Made by a program: the position numbers and the translations under genes. From contig JAILLA010000108.1 in assembly GCA_024693325.1 (NCBI GenBank), positions 1 through 64,000 on the forward strand: a stretch of DNA of 64,000 bases. The letters are read 5' to 3'. Positions within the stretch are counted from its first letter, which is position 1. Every line of letters starts with the position of its first letter. The stretch comes from Solobacterium sp. (GTDB taxonomy: Bacteria; Bacillota_I; Bacilli_A; Erysipelotrichales; Erysipelotrichaceae). A model generated the notes under the pieces. The model worked only from the letters and a program-made list of their open reading frames with translations. It did no database searches and was not told the DNA's origin. This document shows, one piece after another, positions 6,303-60,437 of the stretch.

Positions 6303-6368
6303 GATAGTTTCTCCTTTTTTTGTCATCTCCATCATAACAGGTCAAAAGCATTATTTAGAATGCAATGC

Positions 6369-7310: not shown

Positions 7311-7481
7311 GCCTTCACCTCTTGCGTGATAGTGCGCTTTTGATGAATTCATCATGACATCATATCTCCTTTCCCGGAATCGGAGAAAACCATATGGTAT
7401 CCATCGGTTTTACCGATATCTAGTATAACATTTCTTCCGTTTCGCAGATGGGCAGGAATTGCTAAATTGTAATTGCAAATA

Positions 7482-7497
7482 AAGAAAGCGCTTTCCA
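7482..7497 (+). promoter_or_regulatory. Candidate cre site (CcpA box) upstream of the DUF6282 gene
   Basis: AAGAAAGCGCTTTCCA agrees with the cre consensus WTGNAARCGNWWWCAW at 14 of 16 positions and contains the palindrome GAAAGCGCTTTC. It lies just before the ribosome site of the DUF6282 gene, so bound CcpA would act as a roadblock. Confidence 0.5.
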
Positions 7498-7511
7498 AAC
7501 AGGAGGAGAAG

Positions 7512-8372: not shown

Positions 8373-8403
8373 ACAAAAAGGGAAAATGTGAAGGAGAAAA
8401 ATC

Positions 8404-9717
8404 ATGCTGAGTATCGCTATCGTTGCGGCAATCGCTGTCGCTATATATCTTGGATATAAAACAAAGATCAACACAGGTCTGTTCTGTATCGTATTTGCCT
8501 ACATCATCGGCTGCTTCGTAATGGGTCTGAAAACAAAAGAACTCATCGGTTTCTGGCCGACATCGACCATGTTCGTTATTCTCTCCGTATCGCTGTTCTA
8601 TAATTTCGCGGCGATCAACGGGACACTGGAAAAGCTTTCCGGCAGCCTGCTGTATGCCTGCCGTAAATTCCCCGGCCTTCTGCCGTATGCGCTGTTTGCG
8701 ACTGCAGTAATTCTTTCAGTCATGGGTGCAGCTTACTTTACGGTCCTTGCCTTCCTTGCCCCGATCACAATGCTGATATGTGAAGAATCAAAGATGGATA
8801 AGCTGACAGGGGCTGTCGCCATCAATGCAGGCGCGCTTGCCGGCGGAAACTTCCCGACTGCAGCTCTGGGTGTCGTATTCCGCGGACTGGTAGACAACGC
8901 TTATGAAGCAGCTCCCGGCCTGACTGCTCCGGATTCCTTCTCCATGATGATGAAGATCTGCGGCTTTGCGATCGTATTCTCACTGATCCTGATCACGATC
9001 ATGCGCTATGGTTTCAAGTCCAACCGGAATATCGGCAAGGGCGTGGAATTCCGCAAGCCTGAACCGTTCAATGAAAAACAGAAAAAGACACTTACACTGA
9101 TGCTGGTCATGATGGCAGTTGTCCTGATCTTCCCGCTCCTGAAGATCGTAATGCCTTCTTCCGCACTTATCGCAACGATCGGCAGTAAGATCGATGTTGG
9201 TCTTGTCGCGATCGTCTTCGCAGTCATTGCACTTCTTCTGGATCTTGCACCGCAGAAGGAAGCCATTGCCAGGATCCCCTGGAATACGATCATCATGATC
9301 GCCGGCGCAGGAATGCTGATCGCTGTCGCTGTCAAGGCAGGAACGATCGAAGCACTGTCCAACTGGATCGGTTCCAATGTACCGACACCGCTGATCCCGA
9401 TCGCATTCAGTTTCGTTGGTGCTATCATGAGCTTCTTCTCTTCCACGACAGGCGTTGTTGCACCGGCTCTGTTCCCGCTCATTCCGGGTCTTGCAGCATC
9501 CAGCGGCCTCAGCGCAATTGCACTGTTTGCCTGCACGGTACTTGGCGCTCAATCCAGCGCGATCAGCCCGTTCTCTTCGGGCGGCAGCCTGATCCTTGGC
9601 TCCTGCGGCAATGAAGAAGACCGTCAGACACTCTTCAACCGTCTGCTGATGACCGCTGTACCGATCAGCGTGATCAGCTGCGCAGTCTACAACTTCATCG
9701 TTGCAATGGTCTTATAA
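8404..9717 (+). CDS. MatC/SLC13-like membrane permease (dicarboxylate-type carrier)
   Basis: The 437-residue protein has about 11-12 transmembrane helices. The first 150 residues resemble the MatC N-terminal family, with the signature stretch around NAGALAGGNFPTAALG; the second half has the matching SSTTGVVAPALFPLIPG re-entrant loop of ion-transporter-superfamily carriers. It would import an organic acid at the inner membrane. AAGGAGAAAAATC precedes the ATG. Its position behind DUF6282 makes the two a likely import/catabolic pair. Confidence 0.8.
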   Translation: MLSIAIVAAIAVAIYLGYKTKINTGLFCIVFAYIIGCFVMGLKTKELIGFWPTSTMFVILSVSLFYNFAAINGTLEKLSGSLLYACRKFPGLLPYALFATAVILSVMGAAYFTVLAFLAPITMLICEESKMDKLTGAVAINAGALAGGNFPTAALGVVFRGLVDNAYEAAPGLTAPDSFSMMMKICGFAIVFSLILITIMRYGFKSNRNIGKGVEFRKPEPFNEKQKKTLTLMLVMMAVVLIFPLLKIVMPSSALIATIGSKIDVGLVAIVFAVIALLLDLAPQKEAIARIPWNTIIMIAGAGMLIAVAVKAGTIEALSNWIGSNVPTPLIPIAFSFVGAIMSFFSSTTGVVAPALFPLIPGLAASSGLSAIALFACTVLGAQSSAISPFSSGGSLILGSCGNEEDRQTLFNRLLMTAVPISVISCAVYNFIVAMVL

Positions 9718-38530: not shown

Positions 38531-39928
38531 TCAGTCGAGGATAACTTCCTGCTTCAGCAGAGCTTCCCGCAGTTCCTGGTAAGAGAGTTCTCTCGATGTG
38601 CAGTTTTTTGCGGCACAGAGTGCTGCAGCTGTACCTGCACCCTGTCCCATGACCTGACATCCAGGTACATTTCTGGTAGACATATGTGCTTTCAGGTCAG
38701 TAGTGACACATCTTCCGGCCATGAACAGGTTGTCGCATCCTTTTGCCAGCAGCATCCTGTAAGGGAATCCATAGAATCCCGGATCAGCAATGACGCATTC
38801 CGGATGATGCTCACTAGCAAGATCGTGAAATCCGTAGATACCGATTTCATCTTCGAATCTTGCACCGGCCGTGATCTCTTCGTTTGTCAGCATTTTATCG
38901 CAGACAGCCGCATTTGTTGCACGAATTCCAAGTTGTGTGGACGCCCAGGAAATATAGGCATCTTCGAATCCGGGAACACAGGACTTCAATGCGTTGCCAA
39001 ACTTCATGATTTTGATGCGCATTTCCATTTCCGCATTGCTGAGATCCATGGCTTTTGAAGCATCACACATGATGCCTTTGGAGTTGTTGATATATGTCAT
39101 TTCGCCCTTGTGGATGGAAGACATGCTGGTAAAAGCACGCATGTCAAGATCGACGATTTTCTGATACCGTTCCGGATCGCGGACCTGAGTGAATGCATAT
39201 TGTTCCGCCGTAATGCCCGCATAAGGCGTGTCCGAGTGACTCAGACGGACAGCTCCTTTTGGATTCTCTGCGACCATTTTGTCCGTGTCTACACCGGCCA
39301 TGCCGAATACCAGACCTGTCGGTCCGCCGCATACTTTATCATAATCCTGCCACAGCGGAACCTGTTCTACACCGGCCCGCTTTGCGATATCTCCGTCACC
39401 CGAGCAGTCGATATACTGCTTTGCTCTGACTGCTGTGCGTCCGTCCTTGTTTTCGATCAGTGCTGCTGTGATTCTTGTTCCATCCATCAGGACACCGCAG
39501 AACATGGTCTGAAGAAGTACGGTTACACCGGCCTCCATCAGCATTTCACTGATGACGCCCTTATAGATTTCATGATCCGCGACATAACGGAAAGGACTGT
39601 GATGATGATCATCCGGTGTCGGAATGTATCCCGTACCGCCGTTTTCCTCCAGCATGCGCTGATTGAGTTCATACGGAATTCCTCCGACTACCCGTTTTGC
39701 GGTTTCCGGATTCCGGCTCATTGCATAGAAACTGTTGGCACCGATGCCGCCGTTGGTATAAGTTCCACCCGGTACCGGCATCTTTTCAGCGAGTACGACC
39801 TTTGCGCCCTGCCGTGCTGCAGCGATAGCGGCAATGCAGCCGGCTGTGCCTGCCCCGGCGATGAAGACATCTGCTTCCAGAACGGGTATCTTCCGCTCCG
39901 GCTCGATGATATAGTTCTCAGATTTCAT
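38531..39928 (-). CDS. FAD-dependent oxidoreductase (FAD_oxidored, PF12831)
   Basis: The 465-residue protein begins with the dinucleotide-binding motif VFIAGAGTAGCIAAIAAARQGAKV and has CSGDGDIAKRAG and, near the end, LFMAGRCVTTDLKAHMSTRN with a second GQGAGTAAALC motif. This is the family that binds FAD and often acts on sugars, ketosteroids or unknown metabolites. AAAGGAGCACG precedes the start. It is 28 bases downstream of the 2-hydroxyacid dehydrogenase gene and shares its operon, so both probably oxidise or reduce parts of one substrate. Confidence 0.82.
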   Translation of the reverse strand: MKSENYIIEPERKIPVLEADVFIAGAGTAGCIAAIAAARQGAKVVLAEKMPVPGGTYTNGGIGANSFYAMSRNPETAKRVVGGIPYELNQRMLEENGGTGYIPTPDDHHHSPFRYVADHEIYKGVISEMLMEAGVTVLLQTMFCGVLMDGTRITAALIENKDGRTAVRAKQYIDCSGDGDIAKRAGVEQVPLWQDYDKVCGGPTGLVFGMAGVDTDKMVAENPKGAVRLSHSDTPYAGITAEQYAFTQVRDPERYQKIVDLDMRAFTSMSSIHKGEMTYINNSKGIMCDASKAMDLSNAEMEMRIKIMKFGNALKSCVPGFEDAYISWASTQLGIRATNAAVCDKMLTNEEITAGARFEDEIGIYGFHDLASEHHPECVIADPGFYGFPYRMLLAKGCDNLFMAGRCVTTDLKAHMSTRNVPGCQVMGQGAGTAAALCAAKNCTSRELSYQELREALLKQEVILD

Positions 39929-41755: not shown

Positions 41756-43714
41756 ATGAGCTGGTGGACAAATTACCCGTGGAGAATGGTACAGACAAAC
41801 TTCCGTGAAATTGACATGGCAGATGTTGATGCGGAAAAATTCGCACAGGATCTGGCAGACTATGGCGCAACAGTTGTGACATTGAATGCCGGAGGCATTC
41901 TTGCAAGCTATCCGAGTGAACTTCCGTTTCATACTGTCAGCAGTTATCTGACCGGAAGCTCTCTGAAAGAGATGGTTGAAGCATGTCATGCAAAAGGGAT
42001 CAAAGTCATTGCACGCATGGACTTCTCCAAGATTCCGTATGCAGTATATGAACAGCATCCCGATTGGGCATTTATTACTGCAGAAGGAAAGATCATCGAG
42101 CAGAACGGTTTCGTGCAGACCTGCCAGAACAGTGAATACCAGCAGGAAAAGGTCATTGAGATTCTGCAGGAGCTGCTGAGCACGCATCCGTTTGACGGTG
42201 TTTACTGCAATATGAGCGGCTTCATTGCGACCGACTACAATGAAAAGATCCATGGCTTCTGCACATGTGCTAACTGCCGGAACGGCTTTAAGGCAGCTAC
42301 AGGCATGGATGTTCCGCAGAAGATGGATATGCGTGATCCGGTAATGCTGAGATACATGGGCTTCCAGTCTGCGGCTTCCGGAAAACTGCGCGCTAAGATG
42401 AACAAGGCGATCAAGGCACTCAATCCGGAAATCGCTCTGGATAAAGTTGATTATCTGAGAACGGAATCGCATACGGCGATCGGTGAACCGATCTGGGTAT
42501 ACAGCGCTTCCTCCAATTCCAGGATCACTTCCGGTGCACAGCGTACATTGGTTTCTGACAATGCAAGCGTGGACTTCATGGGTTTCCGCTACCGCGAAAG
42601 TTCTGTTTCACCGGGTGTGCTTGAACTCCGTCAGTGGCAGAATCTTGCCAATTCCGGAAGCACCAGTATTTATATCATGGGGCGTCTGGACAACCACAGG
42701 GACAAGGCAGTCTTTGCAGGCACAAAGGATGTCTTCCGATTCCATAAGCAGAATGAAGATCTGCTCACGGGTCTTGCCAGTGCAGCAGAAGTGCTTCTGG
42801 TAAGCAAATCCAGACAGGGCAGATATGATCCCGAACAGTACGGTTGGGTTCGTGCACTGAGTGCCACCCATATTCCGTTCGATGAAGTCCGGGCAAACGG
42901 TGTCAGTGAAGCTGCACTTGCCGGCAAAAAGACGGTGATTCTTGCAGATGCGTCCGATCTGAGTCCGGATGCCTGCGCCCTGATCGATGCATTTGCAGAG
43001 AAAGGCGGAACGGTCATTTCCTCCGGTGATTCAGGTGTGCGCGGAAAGGCAGATACACTGAAATGCCTGGGCGTAACAAAAGTGACAGGAAAAACAAAGA
43101 CAAAGAGCACTGCCTTTACGGTAAAGAAAGAGGAAGAACAGCTGTTCTCAAAGAGTGCTGTGTCTCCGGTCATTGCGGCAGGGGATGAAGTGACGCAGGC
43201 AGAATATGCGGAAGGTATTGTGAAATATCTGAATACGGAACCGGAACCTCGTCTGGGACCGCCGGAAGTCTGCTATCCGACAGAGGAAACAGCTGATCCG
43301 GGTGTAACTGTATATTCATACGGCGAAGGAAAGGGAATCTTTGTTCCGTGGAAGTGCGGAAGCTTCTACCATGCGGAAGGATATACCAACATTCTGAATT
43401 TCATGCAGGATGTGCTGTACTCCCTTGCCGGACTGAAAAATATGGCTCCGGATATGCATCCGACAGTCGAACTTGTATACAGCCGGAAAGAAGGAAAGAA
43501 GGTCGTTTCCCTGATCAACGCGAGCGGTTATTTCGGAAACAGCTTCTTTGAACCTGTTGAAATGCATGACATCGTCCTGGAGATCCCCGGAGCATATGCT
43601 TCCGCAGAAGCACTGAACGGCGGAACAGCATCCCTGACAGCCGGGGAATCTGTGACAGAAGTGCATCTGGATGTGCTGAAGCACTTCGAGATGATCGTTC
43701 TGGAAGAAAACTAA
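41756..43714 (+). CDS. GHL6/alpha-amylase-like TIM-barrel protein, putative glycoside hydrolase
   Basis: The 652-residue protein starts with WWTNYPWRMVQTNFREID and has a TIM barrel of hydrolase type: GIKVIARMDFSKI, DGVYCNMSGF and CTCANCRNGF (a CxxC pair) match GHL6-type (PF14871) putative hydrolases. A second Rossmann-like domain at about 360-440 (KTVILADASDLSPDAC) resembles the trimerisation domain of GH42 beta-galactosidases, and the end is a beta-sandwich. No signal peptide. GGAGGCAG precedes the ATG. It stands before a 2-hydroxyacid dehydrogenase gene 82 bases away, and faces two oxidoreductase genes. The reaction is unknown. Confidence 0.68.
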   Translation: MSWWTNYPWRMVQTNFREIDMADVDAEKFAQDLADYGATVVTLNAGGILASYPSELPFHTVSSYLTGSSLKEMVEACHAKGIKVIARMDFSKIPYAVYEQHPDWAFITAEGKIIEQNGFVQTCQNSEYQQEKVIEILQELLSTHPFDGVYCNMSGFIATDYNEKIHGFCTCANCRNGFKAATGMDVPQKMDMRDPVMLRYMGFQSAASGKLRAKMNKAIKALNPEIALDKVDYLRTESHTAIGEPIWVYSASSNSRITSGAQRTLVSDNASVDFMGFRYRESSVSPGVLELRQWQNLANSGSTSIYIMGRLDNHRDKAVFAGTKDVFRFHKQNEDLLTGLASAAEVLLVSKSRQGRYDPEQYGWVRALSATHIPFDEVRANGVSEAALAGKKTVILADASDLSPDACALIDAFAEKGGTVISSGDSGVRGKADTLKCLGVTKVTGKTKTKSTAFTVKKEEEQLFSKSAVSPVIAAGDEVTQAEYAEGIVKYLNTEPEPRLGPPEVCYPTEETADPGVTVYSYGEGKGIFVPWKCGSFYHAEGYTNILNFMQDVLYSLAGLKNMAPDMHPTVELVYSRKEGKKVVSLINASGYFGNSFFEPVEMHDIVLEIPGAYASAEALNGGTASLTAGESVTEVHLDVLKHFEMIVLEEN

Positions 43715-43796
43715 TTATCAGATATAAAAGCAAATCTGCATATCAAACTGAGAGTTTTGAACTTCTATAATCTGTGTGAAAAGTGAGGAAACAACC

Positions 43797-44915
43797 ATGC
43801 CGAAAATCAGAAAAGTCGTATCAACCGTCTGGTATAACAAAGAAAACTACCATGCGCTCCGCAATGTTTTCCCAGAAGCAGAATTCGTATATGTGAACTT
43901 CTACGAGAAGGATAAGATCAGGGAAGAACTGAAGGATGCGGATGCCGCGATCATTCTCGGTGATGTGGACAACTGCATGCTGGAAAGCGATACGCTGAAA
44001 TGGATCTTCTGTGATCATTCCGGTCTGAACGGTTCAGCCAGGGATGAAGTGTTCGCAAAGAATATCATCGTGACCGGAGCTGCCGGAAGAAGCGCACCGG
44101 TGCTGGCAGAACACTGTATTTATTTCATGCTGCAGGGATGCTACCACACAAAAGAACTGCTGAAAGCACAGGAAGAGGGAAAATGGGGCGTTGAAGGCTC
44201 CAATACCTGGAAGGGACTGTATGGCAGAAAGGTCGGAATTCTCGGCCTCGGCAATAACGGCAGGATGCTGGCAGACAGACTGCAGGCATTCGGCATGGAT
44301 GTCTATGCATATGACAAGTTCCCGATCAAAGGTTATGACTGGCTGAAGGGCAAGTTCATTGCCAATAACGGAGATACACCGGACTGGATCCTGGAGAACT
44401 GTGATTTCGTTGTCCTGACACTGATGCTGACGGATGAGACATATCATATGTTCAATGCGGAAACATTTAAAAAGATGAAGAAAGATGCTTTCCTTGTCAA
44501 CATGGCAAGAGGCGGCATCGTAGATACACAGGCTCTGACAGAAGCACTGCAGAACGGTGAGATCGCAGGTGCAGGACTGGATGTCATCGAGGAAGACCCG
44601 CTTCCTTCCGATCATCCTTTATGGAGAATGCCGAATGTCTATATCACACCGCATACCACACCGCAGGTACCGGACCGTGCAAGGCGCAGTATTGAGATCA
44701 TCCGGGAAAATGCCAGAAGGTTTGAAGCCGGTGAACCGATGCTGAATGTCATGACAGAACGTGACCGCTTCACGGCAGGCGGCGCTGTTACAAGCGGATT
44801 CGCAAGGCTGACCAATTCCAATCTTTCCAAGGAAGAGATTGAAAAAGTTCCTTTGGAGAAATTCCTCGGTAAAAAAGGATGGAAAGATCCTTCTGAATGG
44901 AATTATCTGGACTGA
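43797..44915 (+). CDS. D-2-hydroxyacid dehydrogenase-like protein, second copy
   Basis: About 372 residues, with the NAD loop GLGNNGRML, catalytic Arg in VNMARGGIVD, Glu in VIEEDPLPSDHPLW and His in ITPHTTPQ. The family is the D-isomer-specific dehydrogenases, only distantly like the copy at 39957; this one is longer by a C-terminal stretch of about 60 residues. GTGAGGA precedes the ATG at 43797. It follows the GHL6-like gene and ends at a terminator. Its substrate is likely a keto or uronic-type acid made in this locus. Confidence 0.83.
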   Translation: MPKIRKVVSTVWYNKENYHALRNVFPEAEFVYVNFYEKDKIREELKDADAAIILGDVDNCMLESDTLKWIFCDHSGLNGSARDEVFAKNIIVTGAAGRSAPVLAEHCIYFMLQGCYHTKELLKAQEEGKWGVEGSNTWKGLYGRKVGILGLGNNGRMLADRLQAFGMDVYAYDKFPIKGYDWLKGKFIANNGDTPDWILENCDFVVLTLMLTDETYHMFNAETFKKMKKDAFLVNMARGGIVDTQALTEALQNGEIAGAGLDVIEEDPLPSDHPLWRMPNVYITPHTTPQVPDRARRSIEIIRENARRFEAGEPMLNVMTERDRFTAGGAVTSGFARLTNSNLSKEEIEKVPLEKFLGKKGWKDPSEWNYLD

Positions 44916-47384: not shown

Positions 47385-49154
47385 ATGACTGCTACAAAAG
47401 AGAAAAAAGGGCTTCTTGCCAATCGATTCACTTCATCGTTCTGGGATTCAAAGATCAAATCCGCGAATGTTACCGGTAAGGAAAAATGGCTTGGTTATGT
47501 TGTCGGACCGTTCGGCGTAATGCTGCTGCAGTCCATCGTCAACAGCTACTTCAACCAGTTCCTGACCGACACGCTCGGATTCACCGTAAGCCGCGGCATG
47601 TGGATCGCCGGCTTCATGGTCGTATTCCCGGTCATGTCCAAACTGCTCGATGCCATCACAAATGTCCTGATGGCAAAGATCCTCGACAAGACAGCCTGCA
47701 AACAGGGTAAACTTCGTCCCTGGTTCATCCTGTCCCTTCCGATCACAGTGATCAGTATTCTGATGATGTTCGCGATTCCGGATATGGATGCCAAAGCACA
47801 GGCGATCTGGGTCGTTATCTCATACAACATGTTCTACTCCGTCGGCTACACGATGTGGTACATGGCATATGAACTTTCCGCAGCACTCTCTACAAGAAAT
47901 GTCAAACAGCGTTCCGGCAACTCCATGATGGGTCAGATCACCAAGAATATCGGTACAGGTATGATCTCCATCATCTTCCCGACACTGCTCTCCGCGATCG
48001 CCAAAGGCTTAACCGGCGGAAACATGAAGCAGGGCTATCTCTTAACACTGTCCTTCATGTGTGTCATCGCAGTACCGCTGACATTCATCCAGTACTTCTA
48101 CACACGTGAAAGAATTACGGAAGAACGCCGTATGACTGATGTTGATGAAAATGAAGGAAAAGTTGAAGAAGCGACATTCCTCCAGCAACTGAAAGCCTGT
48201 GTCAAAGATAAGTACTGGCTCATGTTCATCCTGCTGATCTTCATCTATCAGGTACTCAACGCTCTCAAGGGCGTCAGCCAGGTCTACTACGCAGGATGGG
48301 TCGTCAGAGGAAACGCATATGGTGAATATGCTGCGATCCAGAGAAACTTCACAATGATCTCCATGGCTCCGATGGGACCGATGCTCTTCATTGTCGTACC
48401 CCTGATCAAAAAGTTCGGCAGACATCTGATGATCATCATCGGTTCAATCATCGCAGCGATCGGTGCGATCATCGCCTTCTTCGGTGCCGGAAACACATTG
48501 CCGGTCTATATCGGAACAGGTCTCGGCGGCGTTGGTGCTATGTTCTACGTCTATACCATGATGAGCTTCACAGGCGATGCGATCGACCACGTTGAATACT
48601 CTCAGAGAGTCCGTGTAGAAGGTGTCACAGCTGCTCTTGTCGGCTTCATGCATTCACTGGCAAACGGTCTTGGACAGGGTCTGTTCAACCTCGGCCTGCT
48701 CGCTACAAAATATGTCACACCTGAAGCGATCGGCACATTCGAAAAGAACGGAAAGATCATCGAGAAATTCGCTGATCAGCCTGCCGCAGCAACAACATGG
48801 ATCAACTTCTCCTACCAGGGCGCGATCGCTCTGACAGCGATCCTCTTCTTCGTACTGTTCATGTTCTTCTTCGATATCGACAAGAAGATGCCGGCAGTTC
48901 AGGAAGAACTGACAGAGAGAAAGAAGGCTGAATGTGAAGCTAAGGGTATTCCGTATGTATCACCGCTGGAACAGCAGAGAGCTGAGATCGCAAAGCAGCA
49001 GGCTGAAGCAGAAGAAAACCGCATTAAGGAACTGAAGGAAAAATGCGAAAAGCAGGGCCTGGACTTCGATACGGAAAACCAGAAATACCTCGAAAAGAAA
49101 GCAAAGAAAGACGCTAAGAAAGCTGCTAAAAAAGCAAAACAGAATAAACAGTAA
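47385..49154 (+). CDS. GPH-like MFS symporter with a long charged tail, cassette 3
   Basis: The 589-residue protein has about 12 helices and GPH marks (KLLDAITNVLMAKILDK; VKQRSGNS in place of PKQRP). After residue about 500 comes a soluble tail of roughly 90 residues rich in Lys, Glu and Gln, ending in KKAKKDAKKAAKKAKQ, probably coiled coil. Copies 1 and 2 end 30-50 residues after the last helix and lack it. The ATG follows AGGAG. A terminator separates it from the GH2 gene. Confidence 0.85.
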   Translation: MTATKEKKGLLANRFTSSFWDSKIKSANVTGKEKWLGYVVGPFGVMLLQSIVNSYFNQFLTDTLGFTVSRGMWIAGFMVVFPVMSKLLDAITNVLMAKILDKTACKQGKLRPWFILSLPITVISILMMFAIPDMDAKAQAIWVVISYNMFYSVGYTMWYMAYELSAALSTRNVKQRSGNSMMGQITKNIGTGMISIIFPTLLSAIAKGLTGGNMKQGYLLTLSFMCVIAVPLTFIQYFYTRERITEERRMTDVDENEGKVEEATFLQQLKACVKDKYWLMFILLIFIYQVLNALKGVSQVYYAGWVVRGNAYGEYAAIQRNFTMISMAPMGPMLFIVVPLIKKFGRHLMIIIGSIIAAIGAIIAFFGAGNTLPVYIGTGLGGVGAMFYVYTMMSFTGDAIDHVEYSQRVRVEGVTAALVGFMHSLANGLGQGLFNLGLLATKYVTPEAIGTFEKNGKIIEKFADQPAAATTWINFSYQGAIALTAILFFVLFMFFFDIDKKMPAVQEELTERKKAECEAKGIPYVSPLEQQRAEIAKQQAEAEENRIKELKEKCEKQGLDFDTENQKYLEKKAKKDAKKAAKKAKQNKQ

Positions 49155-52883: not shown

Positions 52884-52909
52884 TAAAGAAGCGTCGGTGC
52901 GCTTCTTTA
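52884..52909. terminator. Bidirectional terminator between GH43 and AraC copy 3
   Basis: A perfect 10-bp stem TAAAGAAGCG with CGCTTCTTTA and a six-base loop lies between the two converging genes and touches the AraC stop. Confidence 0.75.
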
Positions 52910-54133
52910 TAGTTTCTGATTCTGTTTGCGGTATTCTGCCGGGGGAGTACCGACGATCTTCCGGAAGGTATCCGCAAAGAAACTGCGGTTGCCAAAACAC
53001 AGCCGGTCACTGATATTCTGGATGCTCATTTCGGTCGTTGCCAGCAGGATCTTTGCACGGTTGATCCGTGCATCACGGATATATTCATTGATCGACATGC
53101 CGGTCTCTGTTTTGAATTTGCGTGACAGATAATATTCCGAATAACCGACACGGCGTGCCAGTTTTTCCAGTTCGATCGCGCTTTCCAGATGGGTGTCAAT
53201 ATAGTCACAGCAGCTCTGTACCGCCGGAGAAAACAGATTGGTATTACGCCTGTTATGAACGGTCTGAATAAAATCTGCGTACATGGTATGGCCGATCTGA
53301 ACAGCATCTGTTACTGAATTGCACTGCATGATATCCCTGATGTAAGCATCTCCTTTGGCATATGCTGTTTCCGGTGAAAGTCCCCCTTCGATCGCAGCAC
53401 GTGTACACAGTGAAATGAATACGACCTGAGATGTTTTTGCGTGCCTGAGGGCATTTTCATCACCGGATCCGACACCGAGACTGATGGAAGCAGCGTGTTC
53501 CAGTGCTTTTTTATAAAACAGATTTCCTTCCCGCACCATACGAAGCAGCTCCTGTTCCGCCATATAAGTCTGGATACGGTCACGTTTCGGCATCCCTGAG
53601 GTATCCGGATCCTTGCGGGTGTTGACTGAGTAGAATACCATATCAGCCACCCCGACCTTTTTGCCGGTGACACAGTAATTCATCATGATCGCCTGCTGAA
53701 ACAGAACGGATGACATGACGACTGGGATCTGCCGGAGTATTTTGCGGAACTTGGGACGCCATGACTCGGTTATCTTGGAATTATTGATCATGGAAGCGAT
53801 CGTTTCCGCAGTCAGATCGATCGTGGCGACCGGACCATAAAGATAGATCTTTCGGACTTCATCATTTTCCCCGGTTTCGAACGAAGCACACCACATCAGT
53901 CCCTGGGCAATGCTCAGTATAAGCAGTTCACTATGGTTTTTGCTGTATTTGAGAAGATACTCCAAAAGTCCGGCTGCCTCAAACAATTTATGCAGGGCCT
54001 TACTGGAAGCGGTTGAAGTGATCAGGTTCCCCTGTGTATCGTAAGTGCTGAGATTGAAATCCCCTCCGCAGGACATGAGTTCGGAAAAGCAGGCGAGTTT
54101 CTCTTCAATGGTCATATCATGGAACTGCTGCAT
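52907..54133 (-). CDS. AraC-family regulator, copy 3
   Basis: The 408-residue protein has the same unnamed N-terminal domain as copies 1 and 2 (LSTYDTQGNLITSTASS, KIYLYGPVATI, LRQIPVVMSSVLF) and two AraC helix-turn-helix motifs at the end (IELEKLARRVGYSEYYLSRKF and IQNISDRLCFGNRSFFADTFRKIVG). It converges on GH43 and diverges from the DUF1116-FdrA operon across 292 bases. So it may control the GH2-GH43 pair, the FdrA operon, or both. The position relative to the divergent operon is that usual for a local activator. Confidence 0.85.
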   Translation of the reverse strand: MQQFHDMTIEEKLACFSELMSCGGDFNLSTYDTQGNLITSTASSKALHKLFEAAGLLEYLLKYSKNHSELLILSIAQGLMWCASFETGENDEVRKIYLYGPVATIDLTAETIASMINNSKITESWRPKFRKILRQIPVVMSSVLFQQAIMMNYCVTGKKVGVADMVFYSVNTRKDPDTSGMPKRDRIQTYMAEQELLRMVREGNLFYKKALEHAASISLGVGSGDENALRHAKTSQVVFISLCTRAAIEGGLSPETAYAKGDAYIRDIMQCNSVTDAVQIGHTMYADFIQTVHNRRNTNLFSPAVQSCCDYIDTHLESAIELEKLARRVGYSEYYLSRKFKTETGMSINEYIRDARINRAKILLATTEMSIQNISDRLCFGNRSFFADTFRKIVGTPPAEYRKQNQKL

Positions 54134-54425
54134 AAAGACTCCTTACAGAATTGACATCGGTCAGAATTGAAACAAGTATTGTATGAATAATTCAATTATA
54201 TGGATGTGCCGCCGGATTTGTGAATGAATAATAACACTTTATGGCATTTTTTTGACAAACTGCAGAGAAAACTGTTTCTGCGTTTTTTCGTTTTTGATGA
54301 CAAATTTATGAATATTTAAGCGAATGCACAAATATATCGCAGAAGGCATAATTGCTAATATTCAGATGTAGAAAAGAGGTACTGCAGATGTTTGCGGTAC
54401 GCCAAAGTCAGGAGGAGTTTAAACA
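54134..54425. promoter_or_regulatory. Divergent control region between AraC copy 3 and the DUF1116-FdrA operon
   Basis: The stretch is AT-rich and gene-free. It has TTGACA at 54252-54257 and, overlapping the spacer, an imperfect palindrome GCAGAGAAAACTGTTTCTGC (54262-54281) of the size of an activator or operator site. A TGACAAATTTATGAATATTTA segment follows near 54298. No strong -10 lies at the right distance from TTGACA, so the promoter may need an activator. Confidence 0.4.
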
Positions 54426-55685
54426 ATGACAGTAGGTGAAAAGGTCGCGGCTGCCAATCAGAAAGTTCTGGATATTATGACAAAAGCCAGACTTGTCTGG
54501 ACAGATGTCAAGCCTGCAATTGATGCGGTCCCGGGCATGGAGAAGAATCTGATTCTGATTCCGGGCCCGCCGATCGAACCGGAGGATCTTCCGATCCCGC
54601 TGAAAACAGCGGTATGCGGAGCAGCGATCCATGACGGACTTGCAAAGACAATGGATGATGCATGGGAAATGGTTCTGAAAAGAGAGATCCGTATCGGTTC
54701 ATCACAGAATTATAACTGCGGAAACGCAGCTTCCAGTGTTATGAGCCCCAGCATGCCGGTATTTGTTGTAGAAGACAGAACAAACGGCGGAACAGGATAC
54801 TGTGTACCCCATCCGGGATCCAATCCCAGAGTTCTGAGATGGGGTATTTACGGGGATGATGTAGAAGAGAATCTCAGTTTTATCCGCGGAGACTATGCTG
54901 CAGTACTTGGTGAAGCAGTCCGGAAATCAGGCGGGATCGACCTGATCCGCATCCTTTCCAAAACAGCAGGCATGGGTGATGAGAACCATAACCGCCAGCC
55001 GGCAGCTTCCATGGCACTGGCCCTGGAACTGGTACCGTATATGCTGGATGTTGATCATCCTGCAAGAGACAGGGTCATTAAGGAAGTCTGCGCAAATGAC
55101 CGTTTCTTCCTGCATGTCATGATGGCAGGCGTTGAGGCGATCATGCAGTCCTGCAAGAAAGTACCATATTCTACAGTCATGGTCGGCATGGGCGGCAACG
55201 GAATTGAATTCGGGATCCAGACCGCCGGTACCGGAAACAGGTGGTATACGACAGAAGCACCTAAGATCACCGGAACATTCCTGAAACCGACAACTACCGA
55301 AGCAGATCTGCTCGGATACCTCGGAGACAGCTGTGTAACGGAAGTATGGGGACTTGGCGGAATGAGCGCAATTGCCGGACCTTCCTATCTGAGAATGACC
55401 GGCGGAACATTCCGCGATGCACAGGAACGTACGGAAAAAGCAAGACAGGTATCGCTGGGTGAACATACATTCGCTCCGGTACCGTGGGATGACTACAGAG
55501 GTTTCCCTGTCGGGGTTGATGTCCGCAAGGTCGTCGGACTGAACGTGCTTCCGATCAGCCACGGCGGATCTGCACTGAAGACAGGCGGACAGGCAGGCGC
55601 CGGTGCGGCAGAACTGCCGATGGCATGCTTCAGGGAAGCGGTTGAAGGACTTGTTGAAGAAATCAGAAAACTGGAGGGTGAATAA
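54426..55685 (+). CDS. DUF1116 protein (YlbE/AllG-like)
   Basis: The 419-residue protein is DUF1116, with IPGPPIEPEDLPIP, SQNYNCGNAASSVMSPSMP and MVGMGGNGIEFGIQTAG as recognisable blocks. In E. coli the relative YlbE (AllG) works with FdrA (AllF) and YlbF (AllH) as oxamate transcarbamylase, which makes carbamoyl phosphate from oxalurate. Here it starts a six-gene operon before FdrA. CAGGAGGAG precedes the ATG. No AllH-like gene (DUF2877) and no carbamate kinase are in the operon, so a different acyl donor may be used. The catalytic residues are not known to me. Confidence 0.82.
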   Translation: MTVGEKVAAANQKVLDIMTKARLVWTDVKPAIDAVPGMEKNLILIPGPPIEPEDLPIPLKTAVCGAAIHDGLAKTMDDAWEMVLKREIRIGSSQNYNCGNAASSVMSPSMPVFVVEDRTNGGTGYCVPHPGSNPRVLRWGIYGDDVEENLSFIRGDYAAVLGEAVRKSGGIDLIRILSKTAGMGDENHNRQPAASMALALELVPYMLDVDHPARDRVIKEVCANDRFFLHVMMAGVEAIMQSCKKVPYSTVMVGMGGNGIEFGIQTAGTGNRWYTTEAPKITGTFLKPTTTEADLLGYLGDSCVTEVWGLGGMSAIAGPSYLRMTGGTFRDAQERTEKARQVSLGEHTFAPVPWDDYRGFPVGVDVRKVVGLNVLPISHGGSALKTGGQAGAGAAELPMACFREAVEGLVEEIRKLEGE

Positions 55686-55686: not shown

Positions 55687-57231
55687 ATGCCGATTTTTAC
55701 CAGAATACAGAAAGACCGCTACATTGATTCACTGGAAACACTGAACCAGACAGCGGTACTGAATGATCAGCCGGGAATTGAGAGCGGCTATGTCGGAATG
55801 GCAACGAATGTGTTCAAGGAAGTCATTGAGGAGATCGGACTCGGAACACCGGAAATACAGAGCTGCACAGAAGCAGATTATGTGATCGTAGCTGAAGCAG
55901 AGTCGGAAGAAGCGTTTGAAAAAGCAGTAAATGAACTGACAGCAGGCAGCGCATCTTCCGAAGAGACAGAAGAAAAGAAATATTACTCCAGTATCCGTTC
56001 GGCAGTGATCGAACATCCGAGGGCAAATCTGTGCCAGATCGCCGTACCGGGTGAATATGCGCTGGAAGAAGTTAAGAAAGCATTGAATGCCGGTCTGCAC
56101 TGCTGTGTATTCTCCAATAATGTCCCCCTTGACCAGGAACGTGAGATGAAGGAACTTGCCAGAGAAAAGGGACTGCTCTGCATGGGTCCGGACTGCGGTG
56201 TTGCAAATATCAACGGTGCTGCATTGGTGCTCTCCAGCATCAATAACCGCGGACCGTTCGGCATCATCGGTGCGTCCGGCACAGGCATCCAGCATGTAGC
56301 CGCGATCCTGCATGAAGCAGGCACAGGTGTTTCCCAGACGATCGGTACAGGCGGAAACGACCTGAAGGAACCGGTCGGAGGGATCACGATGTTAATGGGG
56401 ATCGATGCCCTGGAAGCAGATCCTGAAACTAAATTTATTATCCTGATCTCCAGAAAGCCTGCGGACAGTGTACTGCAGAAACTGCTGGCAAGGATCCGGA
56501 CAATGAAGAAGCCTAGAGTCGTCTTCTTCATGGGATGTGATAAAGAAACGATCGAGGAGACAGGTGCTGTCTGGGCAGACAACCTTGATAACTGCGCACT
56601 GAGAGCACTGGAACTGATCGGAAATGATTACTCTCTCGGTGACCTTGAAGAACTGAAAGAAACAGCGAAAGAAGCTGTAAAGGGTATGGCACCGGAACAG
56701 AAGTATGTACGTGCAGCTTATACAGGCGGTACATATCTTGATGAAGGTATGCGCACCATGTGGGAAGCTGCCGGAGGGATCTGGTCCAATGCACCGCTGT
56801 CACCGGAATGGAAGCTTGCGGATGGTGAAGCCAGCAAAGGACATACAGCGATCGACTACGGTGAAGAAGAATTTACGCTCGGCCGTCCCCATCCGGCGAT
56901 CGATGCCGGAATCCGCAGACCTGCGATCCTGAAAGAAGCCGCAGATCCGGAAACAGCTGTGATCGTACTGGACTTCATCCTGACACCTCCGGGACATATG
57001 GATCCGTGCGGATTCGTAGTACCGGACATTAAGAAGGCACAGGAGATTGCAAAGGAAAGAGGCGGAAAGATCGCATTTGTCGCGTCCGTGCTCGGCACGA
57101 CTGCTGACTGGCAGGATATCCGCAAACAGGAAGAAGAACTGCGCGAAGCAGGCGTATATGTATGCCGCACAAATTACCGTGCAGCACTGCTTGCATCAGA
57201 GATCATCAGACTGAGAAAGGAGGCAGCGTAA
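55687..57231 (+). CDS. FdrA-like protein (AllF-like, acyl-CoA synthetase fold)
   Basis: About 514 residues with two domains related to succinyl-CoA ligase: a CoA-binding-like fold with RGPFGIIGASGTGIQHVA and a second with the GTGGNDLKEPVGG loop, which in the ligase family carries the phosphohistidine region, here without an obvious His. The text LCMGPDCGVANING is typical of FdrA. In E. coli the protein is part of the transcarbamylase for oxalurate. GGAGGGTG lies at the end of the DUF1116 gene and sets the ATG at 55687, with no gap. The usual FdrA C-terminal part is absent and sits in the small gene just after. Confidence 0.83.
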   Translation: MPIFTRIQKDRYIDSLETLNQTAVLNDQPGIESGYVGMATNVFKEVIEEIGLGTPEIQSCTEADYVIVAEAESEEAFEKAVNELTAGSASSEETEEKKYYSSIRSAVIEHPRANLCQIAVPGEYALEEVKKALNAGLHCCVFSNNVPLDQEREMKELAREKGLLCMGPDCGVANINGAALVLSSINNRGPFGIIGASGTGIQHVAAILHEAGTGVSQTIGTGGNDLKEPVGGITMLMGIDALEADPETKFIILISRKPADSVLQKLLARIRTMKKPRVVFFMGCDKETIEETGAVWADNLDNCALRALELIGNDYSLGDLEELKETAKEAVKGMAPEQKYVRAAYTGGTYLDEGMRTMWEAAGGIWSNAPLSPEWKLADGEASKGHTAIDYGEEEFTLGRPHPAIDAGIRRPAILKEAADPETAVIVLDFILTPPGHMDPCGFVVPDIKKAQEIAKERGGKIAFVASVLGTTADWQDIRKQEEELREAGVYVCRTNYRAALLASEIIRLRKEAA

Positions 57232-57232: not shown

Positions 57233-57421
57233 ATGAGAGATGTCAGTAAGATCCTCAGTCTGTTCCGTTCGGAACTGGTTACTGTCAATGTAGGTCCGCG
57301 TTCTTTTGCGGAAGTATTGGAAAAACAGGGATATGAAGCCGTGCAGGTCGACTGGAAACCGGCAGCCGGCGGCGATAAGCATATGCAGGAACTGCTGGAA
57401 TATCTCGGAGGCTGGGAATGA
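57233..57421 (+). CDS. Small FdrA-tail domain protein, separate gene
   Basis: The 62-residue protein, MRDVSKILSLFRSELVTV then NVGPRSFAEVLEKQGYEAVQ and VDWKPAAGGDKHM, matches the C-terminal domain of long FdrA proteins; short stand-alone versions exist in other Firmicutes. It has AAAGGAGGCAG upstream inside the FdrA end and lies one base after that stop. Its own stop overlaps the next ATG (ATGA). It is likely a subunit of the DUF1116-FdrA complex. It has no membrane part or metal motif. Confidence 0.72.
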   Translation: MRDVSKILSLFRSELVTVNVGPRSFAEVLEKQGYEAVQVDWKPAAGGDKHMQELLEYLGGWE

Positions 57422-58593
57422 AAGTCCTGGTCTGCAATGTCGGAAGCACATCCCTGAAGTTCAAACTGTATGAAATGCCGGAAGCGAAGCTCCTGGCTGT
57501 AAGCGGTGTTGAACGTGTCGGCTCAGACCATGATGCCATCTTCCGTTATGAGAGATGTTCTGATGGAAATAAGGCCGGATTCGATAAAGCGGATATCCCG
57601 ACATATGAAAGCGGCATCCGTCTGTTTCTGGAATATCTCTGCTCCGGAAAGCATGGTGTGATCGAAGCAGTCAATCAGATCGAGCGTGTCGGTTATAAAG
57701 CAACGCTTTCCAAAGGTCATCTCGGAGTCCATGAACTGGATGAAGAAGTACTTCAGGGCATGGAAGACTGGATCTCACTTGCCCCCCTGCATAACCGCGC
57801 ATATCTCTCAGCAATCGAAGTGATGCGTACATTCCTTCCTGATGCAAGATTTATCGGATGCTTTGAAACAGCATTCCATCAGACGATCCCGATGGAGCGC
57901 AAGATCTTCGGTGTTCCGTATGAATGGTACGAACAATACGGTGTGCAGCGTCTTGGATATCACGGTGCTTCACACGGATATATCGCCGATGTGCTGAATG
58001 AGAGAGGAACAGAGTATTCCGCGATCAGCTGTCATCTTGGCGGGAGCTGTTCGATCTGCGCGATCGAGAACGGAAAAAGCGTTGATACCAGTTTCGGTAT
58101 GAGCCTGGAATCCGGACTGATCCATGCCAATCGCGTCGGTGATATGGATACCAGCATGAGTTACTTCCTGAGGGATGGAGGCATGAGTGATGAAGAGATC
58201 CTTGCCGGTCTGCAGAAGAAGGGCGGACTGCTCGGGATCTCGGGTGTATCCAATGATCTGCGCTATGTCATTGATGCCGCGAAAGAAGGCAATAAACGCG
58301 CGCGGCTGGCAGTGGATGTATTCGTGACCGGTATCGTCCACTATATCGGAAGCTTTGCAATGGACCTCGGCAGACTGGATTACCTGGTATTTACCGCCGG
58401 AATCGGAGAACACTCCGACTATATCCGTGACAAGGTATGTGCAAAACTGAACCTGCTTGGTGTAAAGCTGGATCCGGAAAAGAACAGCAGGAGCGAAGAA
58501 GTGATCTCCTCTGATGACTCCAACGTGAAAGTACTGGTCATTCCGACCAATGAAGAACTCGGAATAGCCAGAAGGACATACGAATACAAATGA
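57418..58593 (+). CDS. Divergent acetate/propionate-kinase-family protein
   Basis: The 391-residue protein has the ASKHA kinase fold of acetate kinase: NVGSTSLKFK (Asn7, Ser10, Ser12, Lys14), APLHN (His125), GYHGASHGY (His182), NRVGDMD (Arg239), FTAGIGEHS and IPTNEELGIAR (Glu379). Changes from true AckA are: GHRVVHGGE replaced by IERVGYKATLSKG (Arg90 kept), the FDTAFHQT Asp is Glu150, and HLGNG is HLGGS. So the acyl pocket is altered. It probably makes ATP from an acyl phosphate other than acetyl phosphate, perhaps the product of FdrA/DUF1116. Its start overlaps the small gene by four bases. Confidence 0.82.
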   Translation: MKVLVCNVGSTSLKFKLYEMPEAKLLAVSGVERVGSDHDAIFRYERCSDGNKAGFDKADIPTYESGIRLFLEYLCSGKHGVIEAVNQIERVGYKATLSKGHLGVHELDEEVLQGMEDWISLAPLHNRAYLSAIEVMRTFLPDARFIGCFETAFHQTIPMERKIFGVPYEWYEQYGVQRLGYHGASHGYIADVLNERGTEYSAISCHLGGSCSICAIENGKSVDTSFGMSLESGLIHANRVGDMDTSMSYFLRDGGMSDEEILAGLQKKGGLLGISGVSNDLRYVIDAAKEGNKRARLAVDVFVTGIVHYIGSFAMDLGRLDYLVFTAGIGEHSDYIRDKVCAKLNLLGVKLDPEKNSRSEEVISSDDSNVKVLVIPTNEELGIARRTYEYK

Positions 58594-59534
58594 AAGAATA
58601 TGCGTATTCTCCGTATCTGAAGAAACCGGAACAGATGCCGGACATTGATCCGCTGAAACCTGCTATGCGTGTCATGCTGAAAATGATCACAAAGACACAA
58701 CAGGCTGAAACTGCCGCATTTGTTCCGCCGGAAGGTGTGCGGATCAGGAAAATGCAGACAGAGTCAGCTGACGGCTGGAGCTTTGATACATGGATCGCTG
58801 AACCGGAAAACTGTCCGGAAAACAGCCCGGCGATCGTTCTGGTTCATGGCGGCGCATTCTACCTGCCGCTGTCTGTCAGTTCACTGGCACTAGGCTGTGC
58901 TTATGCGCAGAAGATGAATATACGGGTATTCCTGCCGGAGTATCGTCTGGTACCTTCATTCCCCGCACCGTGTGCCTTTGAAGACTGCCTGACATTATGG
59001 AAGGAACTCAATGAAGCAGGCTCGATATATGGAATCAATCCTGAGAGGCTGCTCCTGATGGGAGAAAGTGCCGGCGGCGCAATTACCGCAGGAGTGTGCC
59101 TGTATCTGAAAGATACCGGTATGAAGCTTCCGAAAGGACTGCTGCTGGTATATCCGGTACTTGATAACAGAACAGAAACATATCAGTCTGCACAGCGATA
59201 TGAAGATACTGTGTGGCCGCTGAAAGCCAACAGCCATATGTGGGCAGGCTATCTGAAAAATGCACCGGAAGAGATGATGAAATATCTTGTCCCGATGCAT
59301 CATGAAGATCTCTCCGATCTTCCGGTGACGTATGTGGAACCGCAGGAGATCGATATTCTCTGTGATGAAGGAACGACGTTTGCTGAAAGGCTGCAGGCAG
59401 CCGGAGTAAAAACAGAATTGAATATCATTCCCGGGTCATATCATTGCTTTGATTCGGATCTGACTTCAGATTTTGTACAGAATGTTATTGAACAGCGTAT
59501 CACTGCCGCAGAGGCAATGCTGGAAACAGAATAA
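58590..59534 (+). CDS. Alpha/beta hydrolase, hormone-sensitive-lipase type
   Basis: The 314-residue protein has the HGGAF oxyanion motif, nucleophile in GESAGGA and the late Asp-His pair (IDILCDEGT, SYHCFD). These esterases cleave small acyl esters in the cytoplasm. Its start overlaps the kinase gene stop by four bases (ATGA), so the genes are coupled. It may release the acid or alcohol entering or leaving the FdrA step; the substrate is unknown. Length fits the family. Confidence 0.83.
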   Translation: MKEYAYSPYLKKPEQMPDIDPLKPAMRVMLKMITKTQQAETAAFVPPEGVRIRKMQTESADGWSFDTWIAEPENCPENSPAIVLVHGGAFYLPLSVSSLALGCAYAQKMNIRVFLPEYRLVPSFPAPCAFEDCLTLWKELNEAGSIYGINPERLLLMGESAGGAITAGVCLYLKDTGMKLPKGLLLVYPVLDNRTETYQSAQRYEDTVWPLKANSHMWAGYLKNAPEEMMKYLVPMHHEDLSDLPVTYVEPQEIDILCDEGTTFAERLQAAGVKTELNIIPGSYHCFDSDLTSDFVQNVIEQRITAAEAMLETE

Positions 59535-59555: not shown

Positions 59556-60437
59556 ATGAAAATCGGATTTATTGGACTTGGAATTATGGGAAAACCCATG
59601 GCAAAGAATCTTGTAAAGGCAGGGTATTCCCTGATGGTCAACAACCTGACACCGGAGCCGGTAGAGGAACTGGTCGCATGTGGTGCAGAGGCAGGTACAC
59701 AGCGTGAGATCGCGGAGACATGTGACATCATTATGACCATGGTTCCCAACAGCCCTCAGGTAAAGCAGGTCATGTGCGGGGAAGAAGGCGTCGGTGCACA
59801 CATGAGACCGGGCACGATCTTCATCGATATGTCCTCCATCAACCCTGTCGCTTCCAAAGAGATCGCGGAAGAACTGAAAAAGTATGGTGTCGAAATGCTG
59901 GACGCACCGGTATCCGGCGGAGAACCGAAGGCGATCGACGGTACGCTGTCATTTATGGTCGGCGGAAAGCAGGAGATCTTCGATCAGTGCAAACCGATCC
60001 TGGAACATATGGGTGCTTCTGTAGTACGCTGCGGTGAAGTCGGAGCAGGAAACACAACAAAACTTGCAAACCAGATCGTCGTAGCAGGAAATATCATGGC
60101 TTTGTCCGAGGCAATGATGCTGGCAAAGAAAGCAAATGTTGATCCCCAGCTTGTTTATGAAGCGATCAGGGGCGGACTGGCAGGCTCTACTGTCATGGAT
60201 GCGAAGGCACCGATGATGATCTCCGGAAACGACAAGCCCGGATTCCGTATCGATCTGCATATCAAGGATCTGAACAATGCGCTGGATTGTGCGCATACAG
60301 TCGGATCACCCGTTCCGATGACAGCGGCAGTTCAGGAAATGATGCAGTGGCTCCATGCCCATGAAGGCGGCTCCAAGGATCACAGTGCGATCGTTCAGTA
60401 TTATGAACATCTGACCGGTCAGAAAGTATCGGAATAA
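59556..60437 (+). CDS. NAD(P)-dependent 2-hydroxy-3-oxopropionate/3-hydroxyisobutyrate-type dehydrogenase
   Basis: The 293-residue protein has the nucleotide loop FIGLGIMGKPMAKNL, the substrate motif DAPVSGGEPKAIDGTLSFMVGG and catalytic Lys169 in GNTTKLANQ: the beta-hydroxyacid dehydrogenase family, closest by motif to tartronate semialdehyde reductase (GarR/GlxR). E. coli has GlxR in its allantoin-glyoxylate regulon, so this gene strengthens the link of the operon to that chemistry. AAAGGAAAAAAC precedes the ATG. It is the last gene of the operon, before a terminator. Confidence 0.87.
   Translation: MKIGFIGLGIMGKPMAKNLVKAGYSLMVNNLTPEPVEELVACGAEAGTQREIAETCDIIMTMVPNSPQVKQVMCGEEGVGAHMRPGTIFIDMSSINPVASKEIAEELKKYGVEMLDAPVSGGEPKAIDGTLSFMVGGKQEIFDQCKPILEHMGASVVRCGEVGAGNTTKLANQIVVAGNIMALSEAMMLAKKANVDPQLVYEAIRGGLAGSTVMDAKAPMMISGNDKPGFRIDLHIKDLNNALDCAHTVGSPVPMTAAVQEMMQWLHAHEGGSKDHSAIVQYYEHLTGQKVSE

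Follow-up and report, generated by a model that had tools for sequence, protein, structure and literature searches.

The kinase gene and its operon

We analysed a stretch of 64,000 nucleotides from a rumen bacterium, Solobacterium sp. (contig JAILLA010000108.1, positions 1 to 64,000; hereafter the window), in which a gene of the acetokinase family is linked to homologues of AllG and AllF. The gene was read from its ATG at 57418 to the stop codon ending at 58593 on the plus strand, in the correct frame and with no internal stop. It lies among the following genes:

57418..58593, plus strand: signature kinase (the feature under study), 391 amino acids, acetokinase family, predicted 2-hydroxyacyl-phosphate kinase
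54426..55685, plus strand: AllG homologue, putative subunit of an acyl-phosphate-forming transferase (PF06545, 211.6 bits)
55687..57231, plus strand: AllF/FdrA homologue (Pfam CoA_binding and Ligase_CoA; ATG 55687 favoured over GTG 55603)
57233..57421, plus strand: small open reading frame (ORF) of 62 amino acids, a free-standing AllF C-terminal piece (matches to Escherichia coli AllF and 3dmy_A)
58590..59534, plus strand: alpha/beta hydrolase (Abhydrolase_3; PF07859, E 1.9e-43; 4-base overlap with the kinase gene)
59556..60437, plus strand: GarR-type 2-hydroxy-3-oxopropionate (tartronate semialdehyde) reductase (TIGR01505, 412 bits, cutoff 341)

The kinase gene is part of a tightly packed operon, since it overlaps both the small ORF upstream and the hydrolase gene downstream, and the genes for AllG, AllF and the GarR-type reductase adjoin. 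The stop codon of the small ORF overlaps the kinase start (ATGA); this uncalled gene was absent from a sequence-only reading, which had described the kinase as an acetate kinase relative with a rewritten acyl-phosphate pocket. Its product matches residues 510-554 of E. coli AllF and 429-475 of 3dmy_A (E 7.1e-5). The AllG homologue is 31.8% identical to E. coli AllG over 415 amino acids (tblastn) and has a solved relative in the uncharacterised protein 3clq. The AllF homologue scored 367 bits with NF004760, under the cutoff of 433, and matched 3dmy_A with an E value of 8.6e-60. The reductase is 45% identical to E. coli GlxR, and the hydrolase is presumably an esterase or lactonase of the kinase pathway. 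No phosphotransacetylase was present among the annotated operon neighbours.

Over its full length the kinase belongs to the acetokinase family. PF00871 covers residues 2-385 (339.6 bits, E 2.6e-101) and TIGR00016 gave 342.3 bits, above its curated cutoff of 293.4. The scores with the butyrate kinase model TIGR02707 (53.6 bits, cutoff 289) and with the NCBIfam propionate kinase equivalog NF009045 (272 bits, cutoff 580) were far below threshold. An AlphaFold2 model calculated from a 34-row alignment has a mean predicted local distance difference test (pLDDT) score of 94.6 and shows the acetate kinase fold: the top structural matches were 7fj7, 2iir, 1g99 and 1tuy (Z 50-51, 39-40% identity), with a Z score of 51.0 and a root-mean-square deviation of 2.3 Å over 387 residues for 2iir. 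This common fold carries no information on the substrate of the kinase.

The source genome encodes a canonical AckA on contig C38 (503 bits) and the signature kinase (339 bits); a third match, weak and partial (51.6 bits), is probably a butyrate kinase relative. Among 26 host genomes examined, which carry 27 signature kinase loci, 23 also have a canonical paralogue (448-553 bits), the three lacking such a match being G597, G602 and G608. The signature kinase is therefore an AckA paralogue and not the housekeeping copy.

A conserved active-site signature on a separate branch

Residues were mapped onto the kinase through E. coli AckA, and their roles were taken from an excerpt of a paper on Salmonella AckA (PMC3475010). 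Among the catalytic and nucleotide-binding residues, Asn7, Lys14, His125, His182, Arg239, Asp280, Arg282 and Glu379 are retained. Compared with AckA, Arg91 is replaced by Lys94, Val93 by Thr96, Asp150 by Glu150, Asn213-Gly214 by Gly209-Ser210, Pro234 by Leu230, Thr242 by Asn238 and Asn337 by His332. The alignment agrees with the sequence-only reading in that Asn7, His182, Arg239 and Glu379 are kept, the GHRVVHGG region is altered, the Asp of FDTAF is Glu150 and HLGNG reads HLGGS. That reading had also counted Arg90 as a conserved catalytic arginine, which proved to be a misalignment: Arg90 is the neighbouring residue in IERVG, and the column of Arg91 (E. coli/Methanosarcina numbering) is occupied by Lys94. 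The change to the active site is thus deeper than had been described; the replacements of Thr242, Pro234, Val93 and Asn337 had not been listed either. Arg91 and Asp148/150 reportedly matter for catalysis in Methanosarcina AckA mutants, and the kinase lacks both the Arg91 and the metal-site Asp150 of true AckA.

For comparison we used the best 80 of 236 relatives, which comprise 33 loci of clade I (65-96% identity), 24 of clade II (46-58%) and 23 others (L060, L061, L063-L083), together with kinases from a set of 194 genomes representing the phylum of L063. No variation was seen at Lys94, Glu150, Gly209 or Ser210 in 32 clade I rows (the 33 loci plus the window, minus L029 and L030), in 18 of the 24 clade II rows (leaving out L045, L049, L052, L053, L054 and L059) and in 15 rows of the L063 phylum set (L086-L100), which argues against chance substitution. 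Asn238 occurs in 32/32, 11/18 and 14/15 of these rows, respectively. Among 124 aligned kinases the five positions covary: 67 show K-E-G-S followed by N, S, A, E or T, 56 show the R-D combination of AckA and one reads K-E-S-G-T, while mixtures of R with E or K with D are absent (0/124). The rows had been chosen for their similarity, some being near-copies (L063 and L086 represent one gene), and 21 of the 23 canonical paralogues mentioned above are in this alignment and account for R-D rows. The K-E-G-S signature is common to the window kinase and the 'acetate kinases' of the fucose/rhamnose microcompartments of Planctomycetota and Verrucomicrobiota (PVM).

The single intermediate row is L079 from Moorella stamsii. 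Its locus (2237-9194) contains a PduL match and, judged by eye, aldolase-like and aldehyde dehydrogenase-like genes; L079 possibly represents an independent move toward a hydroxyacyl substrate.

In a tree of 80 kinase rows, 44 signature and 36 canonical rows were split by one branch with a support of 100 in the Shimodaira-Hasegawa-like approximate likelihood ratio test (SH-aLRT). The tree was calculated by a quick method with no bootstrap, and its canonical rows include E. coli AckA and TdcD, without PduW. The branch persisted at SH-aLRT 99 after removal of 16 columns in and around the signature. Long branches were flagged for L100, L079, E. coli TdcD and E. coli AckA; L079 stands among the canonical rows, as does TdcD. 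The window kinase falls on the signature side, in clade I (17 rows, support 100). A family tree had been named by the sequence-only reading as a check on its view that another acyl group is likely, and the kinase lies outside the sampled acetate and propionate kinases. Together with the separate canonical AckA of the genome and the operon with AllF-AllG, this split lends support to that view.

Compared with AckA, TdcD and PduW (PF00871, TIGR00016), the kinase thus shares the whole fold and most nucleotide and metal residues, but it has Lys for Arg91, Glu for Asp150, Gly-Ser for Asn213-Gly214 and Asn for Thr242, stands on a separate branch and is not accompanied by a phosphotransacetylase gene in its operon.

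Linkage to AllF-AllG and PduL

The kinase is an acetokinase variant with a conserved, altered catalytic set that is tied to an AllF-AllG (AllFG) module. Of the 33 clade I loci, 31 have AllF beside the kinase and 28 have AllG, compared with 0/24 clade II loci and 0/23 others for either gene. The five clade I loci without AllG are L011, L017 and L025, which have little upstream DNA, and L020 and L023, which have neither AllF nor AllG. Further partners recurring in the 33 loci are the small ORF (31), the hydrolase (26), GHL6 (22), GarR (17), a 2-hydroxyacid dehydrogenase (17), a glycerate kinase of the DUF4147/MOFRL type (12) and a symporter (12); these counts are lower bounds because several loci end early on their contigs. 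The order in L024, L026 and L031 is 2-hydroxyacid dehydrogenase, GHL6, GarR, hydrolase, AllG, AllF, small ORF, kinase and glycerate kinase, and in L020 the glycerate kinase gene directly follows the signature kinase gene, though AllFG is missing. In L042, L044 and L046 (genomes G596, G598 and G599) the altered kinase is accompanied by AllH, and an AllFG sugar operon lies elsewhere in those genomes. In L047-L049, L052-L054 and L059 the clade II kinase gene follows an operon that, judged by eye in L048, resembles one for a 2-oxoacid dehydrogenase, with a NUDIX-like gene in between.

AllG was found in the class of the window (10 of 395 genomes, 11 places) and in the L063 phylum set (12 of 194 genomes, 14 places). 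Within the class, seven of the 11 places lie beside a carbamate kinase (L122, L123, L125-L128, L143), two beside an altered kinase (the window and L129) and two beside neither (L124 and L144, on short contigs). A tree of 38 AllG rows, calculated by a careful method, separated the clade I AllG, an AllK-linked lineage and a sugar lineage, with long branches flagged; L142 and L144 were too short for placement. Nine operons of the sugar lineage (L129, L135, L136, L137, L139, L140, L141, L180, L182) encode an IlvD/EDD dehydratase and a short-chain dehydrogenase/reductase (SDR), and all of them except L140 also contain genes for a metallo-beta-lactamase-type (MBL) hydrolase and a flavin adenine dinucleotide (FAD)-dependent oxidoreductase. 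L181 is cut at the dehydratase, L138 has the SDR alone and the unplaced L142 has FAD and MBL genes alone. The same queries found no IlvD, SDR or MBL in the 13 loci with an AllG of at least about 300 bits (L122-L128, L130-L134, L143). L130-L134, from the L063 phylum set, gave no AllK match, and in L134 a canonical acetokinase lies about 2 kb away.

The pairing of AllF-AllG with an altered kinase recurs with a different AllG lineage in L129 and L117. L129, from the window's own family, encodes in its first part a family 43 glycoside hydrolase (GH43), MBL, SDR, FAD, IlvD/EDD, AllF and AllG, and in its second part a 2-keto-3-deoxy-6-phosphogluconate (KDPG)-type aldolase, PfkB, the altered kinase, AllH, lactate racemase, EtfB, EtfA and an FAD-linked lactate/glycolate-type dehydrogenase. 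In L117, from the L063 phylum set, the order is AllF, AllF tail, AllG and altered kinase. If AllF brings the phosphate, a sugar-type AllG with AllF should come with an altered kinase and AllG alone should not. Both genomes reached via AllG that have a sugar-type AllG together with AllF (G084, G252) possess an altered kinase, and in all six whose AllG scores low and whose fetched stretch gave no AllF match (G003, G026, G090, G137, G168, G189) the one kinase match is canonical (L110 in G137). The numbers are small, the two sets are partly separate in phylogeny and AllF was sought in the fetched stretches; G596, G598 and G599, which have both, had been chosen via the altered kinase and were excluded, and G321 (L144) was left out. 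In L136-L142 a divergent AllG is found, mostly in sugar-acid operons, in genomes without an altered kinase; AllG alone may act there as a hydrolase.

The tail of AllF occurs in three arrangements. In E. coli it is part of AllF itself, in L123, L125, L126, L127, L132 and L143 (and, by their ORF starts, in L129, L180 and L182) it is joined to the AllG N-terminus, and in L117 and the clade I loci it is free-standing. By sequence, this piece moves between subunits. None of nine AllF homologues compared with E. coli SucD has a histidine in the phospho-histidine column of this succinyl-CoA synthetase. AllF of the window, of L026 and of E. coli has none within six columns of it either; in L027, L129, L180, L117 and L125 a histidine lies one or two columns off, so that the loss is less certain there. 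An AllF lacking the phospho-histidine fits direct transfer to phosphate and not a synthetase cycle.

A second genomic context of the signature involves PduL. The Opitutales kinase L063 is 42% identical to the window kinase, carries K-E-G-S and adjoins PduL. In its phylum set 136 of 194 genomes had a kinase match, and the best 25 of these 136 consist of 15 top-ranking kinases with the signature (L086-L100) followed by 10 that lack it (L101-L110). Flanks of 1.5 kb include PduL for 14 of the 15 signature kinases (all but L100) and for one of the 10 canonical kinases (L109). The larger locus around L087 (L115) contains a class II aldolase, an aldehyde dehydrogenase, two bacterial microcompartment (BMC) shell genes, PduL, a lactate/malate dehydrogenase and an FGGY sugar kinase; an excerpt of PMC4207490 describes this set for the PVM locus. 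Among the other PduL-linked loci, the search covered parts of L113, with a BMC shell gene, PduL and an aldehyde dehydrogenase. In the PVM organelle, lactyl-CoA is thought to be the substrate of PduL (excerpt of PMC4784909), and a figure legend in PMC8857213 names lactyl-CoA, lactyl-phosphate and L-lactate. In the alignment PduW (7fj7) retains the canonical GHR, FDTAF, HLGNG and GTR segments; L069, L078 and L080, three kinases of lactobacilli whose loci contain a PduL match, are all R-D. The signature therefore tracks the 2-hydroxyacyl assignment and not PduL itself. This pattern is the strongest clue to the substrate, and its basis is the literature assignment.

Proposed reaction and competing explanations

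We consider it reasonably probable that the kinase is an ATP-forming AckA paralogue that acts on a 2-hydroxyacyl-phosphate supplied by AllFG phosphorolysis. Its signature, tree position and gene linkage were observed directly, and from these we infer the substrate, the reaction and its direction; our confidence in the function is moderate. Oxalurate is carbamoyl-NH-CO-COO, and swapping its NH for CH2 or CHOH gives a 2,4-diketo acid; oxamate, in turn, is a classic analogue of pyruvate. In the proposed scheme AllF and AllG, together with the small AllF tail protein, would split an acylated 2-keto acid with inorganic phosphate. Its substrate is probably a 2,4-diketo sugar acid, in which carbon takes the place of the oxalurate nitrogen, and the leaving group would be pyruvate or hydroxypyruvate, the analogue of oxamate. 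The putative AllFG reaction, diketo acid + phosphate to (hydroxy)pyruvate + 2-hydroxyacyl-phosphate (glyceroyl, glycoloyl or lactoyl), would then be followed by that of the kinase, 2-hydroxyacyl-phosphate + ADP to 2-hydroxyacid + ATP. For the clade of the window the acid is most likely glycerate, with glycolate next. Glycerate, in which both halves would end, is favoured because glycerate kinase and GarR recur alongside clade I, and glyceroyl-phosphate would match the additional hydroxyl groups that Thr96 and Tyr181 bring to the acyl pocket. In the related microcompartment kinases the acid is probably lactate. The lactate racemase and the lactate/glycolate-type dehydrogenase of L129 suggest a lactoyl or glycoloyl group there. 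In the source genome the glycerate kinase (MOFRL match) lies on another contig, C64 (L187 8999-15059), in an apparently separate sugar-acid cluster; judged by eye from the starts of its ORFs, this cluster also has GarR-like, dihydrodipicolinate synthase-like, enolase superfamily-like and permease-like genes.

Three known systems provide the frame for this proposal. The PVM microcompartment kinase shares the signature and the side of the tree, and its acyl group is lactyl according to the literature; its acyl-phosphate comes from lactyl-CoA by PduL, whereas the window kinase is found with AllFG instead, and its acyl pocket is Val/Ala/Phe/Pro compared with mostly Thr/Leu/Tyr/Leu in clade I. The oxamic transcarbamylase AllFGH of E. 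coli converts oxalurate to carbamoyl phosphate and oxamate, as an excerpt of PMC11326118 states. Like AllFGH with AllK, the window has AllF and AllG homologues adjoining a candidate acyl-phosphate kinase, but it differs in lacking AllH, in a kinase of another superfamily, in another AllG lineage and in having sugar instead of allantoin genes. In the non-phosphorylating fucose and rhamnose routes an SDR oxidises C4, and 2,4-diketo-3-deoxy acids such as 2,4-diketo-3-deoxyfuconate are hydrolysed to pyruvate and L-lactate (excerpt of PMC11199699). With route 3 of these (FucF SDR plus FucG or LRA6 hydrolase) the sugar-lineage operons share the dehydratase and the SDR, their MBL hydrolase could be a lactonase, and the expected products are likewise pyruvate and a 2-hydroxyacid. 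AllF-AllG takes the place of the hydrolase and a kinase is added, so that the bond energy would be kept as ATP.

The homology of AllFG to the characterised, carbamoyl-phosphate-forming AllFGH (PMC11326118, in the same excerpt) also allows the view that it still forms oxamate and carbamoyl phosphate from oxalurate and phosphate, as in E. coli, and that the kinase replaces AllK in making ATP from carbamoyl phosphate. The kinase does fill the slot that AllK occupies at seven of the 11 class AllG places, and no candidate for a carbamate kinase (TIGR00746) was found in the source genome, whose assembly is 92% complete. We nevertheless regard such a substitution as unlikely. The source genome gave no match to AllH either, a protein that E. 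coli requires; E. coli allC, allE, gcl and allK have no match in the window or the clade I loci, where the neighbours are glycosidases, a sugar symporter and 2-hydroxyacid enzymes; and the AllG of the window's clade stands on its own branch, apart from the AllK-linked lineage (long branches flagged). The signature moreover occurs beside PduL in microcompartment loci, in which carbamoyl phosphate has no known place.

The view that the protein still acts on acetate or propionate, as an AckA copy within the operon, would agree with the protein's score above the TIGR00016 cutoff, its superposition on acetate kinases (Z about 51) and the eight retained residues from Asn7 to Glu379. We hold this to be improbable, given that the equivalents of Arg91 and Asp150 are altered in all clade members examined, that the tree splits them from the AckA and TdcD rows, that the source genome and 23 of the 26 host genomes have a canonical AckA and that a phosphotransacetylase is absent among the annotated operon neighbours. 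The alteration of Arg91 and Asp150, with their phosphate and metal roles, and of the nucleotide loop, as well as the overlap with the AllF tail gene, could also mean that the protein is not a working kinase at all but a regulatory or structural subunit of an AllFG complex. This seems very improbable: the substitutions are of a conservative kind and do not vary in the rows examined, both histidines and the remaining metal residues are retained, and the kinase is also found where AllFG is missing, next to PduL, glycerate kinase or AllH.

Several points weigh against a 2-hydroxyacyl-phosphate kinase fed by AllFG. The literature found holds no measured activity for any signature kinase, lactyl-phosphate in the PVM compartments is itself a literature assignment, and carbon-carbon chemistry for AllFG would be a new, putative activity. 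Lys and Glu alone are no proof of clade membership, because L079 has both at the two catalytic columns, is otherwise canonical in the neighbouring positions and falls among canonical kinases. Different sub-clades may act on different acyl groups, because most clade I kinases have the pocket Thr96/Leu124/Tyr181/Leu230 and the PduL-linked ones Val/Ala/Phe/Pro. In the clade I loci L020 and L023, which lack AllF, a maker of the acyl-phosphate is not visible, and AllFG or PduL was found in 0/24 clade II loci, AllH in four. L129, L180 and L182 encode a KDPG-type aldolase and PfkB, through which a pathway could bypass AllFG. In the L063 phylum set, most AllG of the sugar lineage (L136-L142) have no AllF match in the stretch, so AllG can serve sugar operons without the AllF-kinase module. 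The window operon has no sugar-acid dehydratase gene, and the sole IlvD/EDD match of the genome lies elsewhere (C6). Finally, the absence of carbamate kinase is less secure because matches turned up in each of the 14 control genomes, in 12 cases under the cutoff and presumably from related kinases.

On a wider scale, we tentatively propose a coenzyme A-free substrate-level phosphorylation in anaerobic gut bacteria, in which AllF-AllG would act as a phosphorolytic carbon-carbon lyase (a retro-Claisen reaction with phosphate) on 2,4-diketo sugar acids and an acetokinase clade would collect the ATP, the same clade serving lactyl-phosphate in fucose/rhamnose microcompartments. Acetokinases are commonly annotated as acetate kinases; with the signature clade present in several phyla, acetate-forming capacity could be over-counted in rumen and gut genomes. 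Should the link to AllFG hold true, non-phosphorylating sugar-acid pathways, in which a hydrolase is the known enzyme, would gain an ATP-yielding step, and AllF/AllG, which the literature found ties to allantoin breakdown, a second role. The link might then reveal an undescribed energy gain from sugars via phosphates of sugar-derived hydroxy acids such as lactate and glycerate.

Four further genes of the window belong to families that accompany the kinase in related loci or flank its operon:

52907..54133, minus strand: AraC-family regulator (Pfam HTH_18/HTH_AraC), divergent from the operon
41756..43714, plus strand: GHL6-type putative glycosidase (PF14871), recurrent operon partner in relatives
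43776..44915, plus strand: D-2-hydroxyacid dehydrogenase family protein (PF02826), recurrent partner
47385..49154, plus strand: GPH-family sugar/uronide symporter (MFS_2; TIGR00792 under cutoff), recurrent partner

The AraC-family regulator is divergent also in the close relatives L004, L005, L007 and L008, and the intergenic region 54134-54425 probably holds the operon promoter. The GHL6 protein has no sequence relative in the PDB at an E value of 0.01. Upstream of the operon, positions 31112-52876 contain genes for GH1, GH2, GHL6, GH43, an MFS_2/GPH symporter, an FAD oxidoreductase and a 2-hydroxyacid dehydrogenase; the product of the FAD oxidoreductase gene (38531-39928) is 58% identical to that of the gene directly before AllG in Sphaerochaeta L027.

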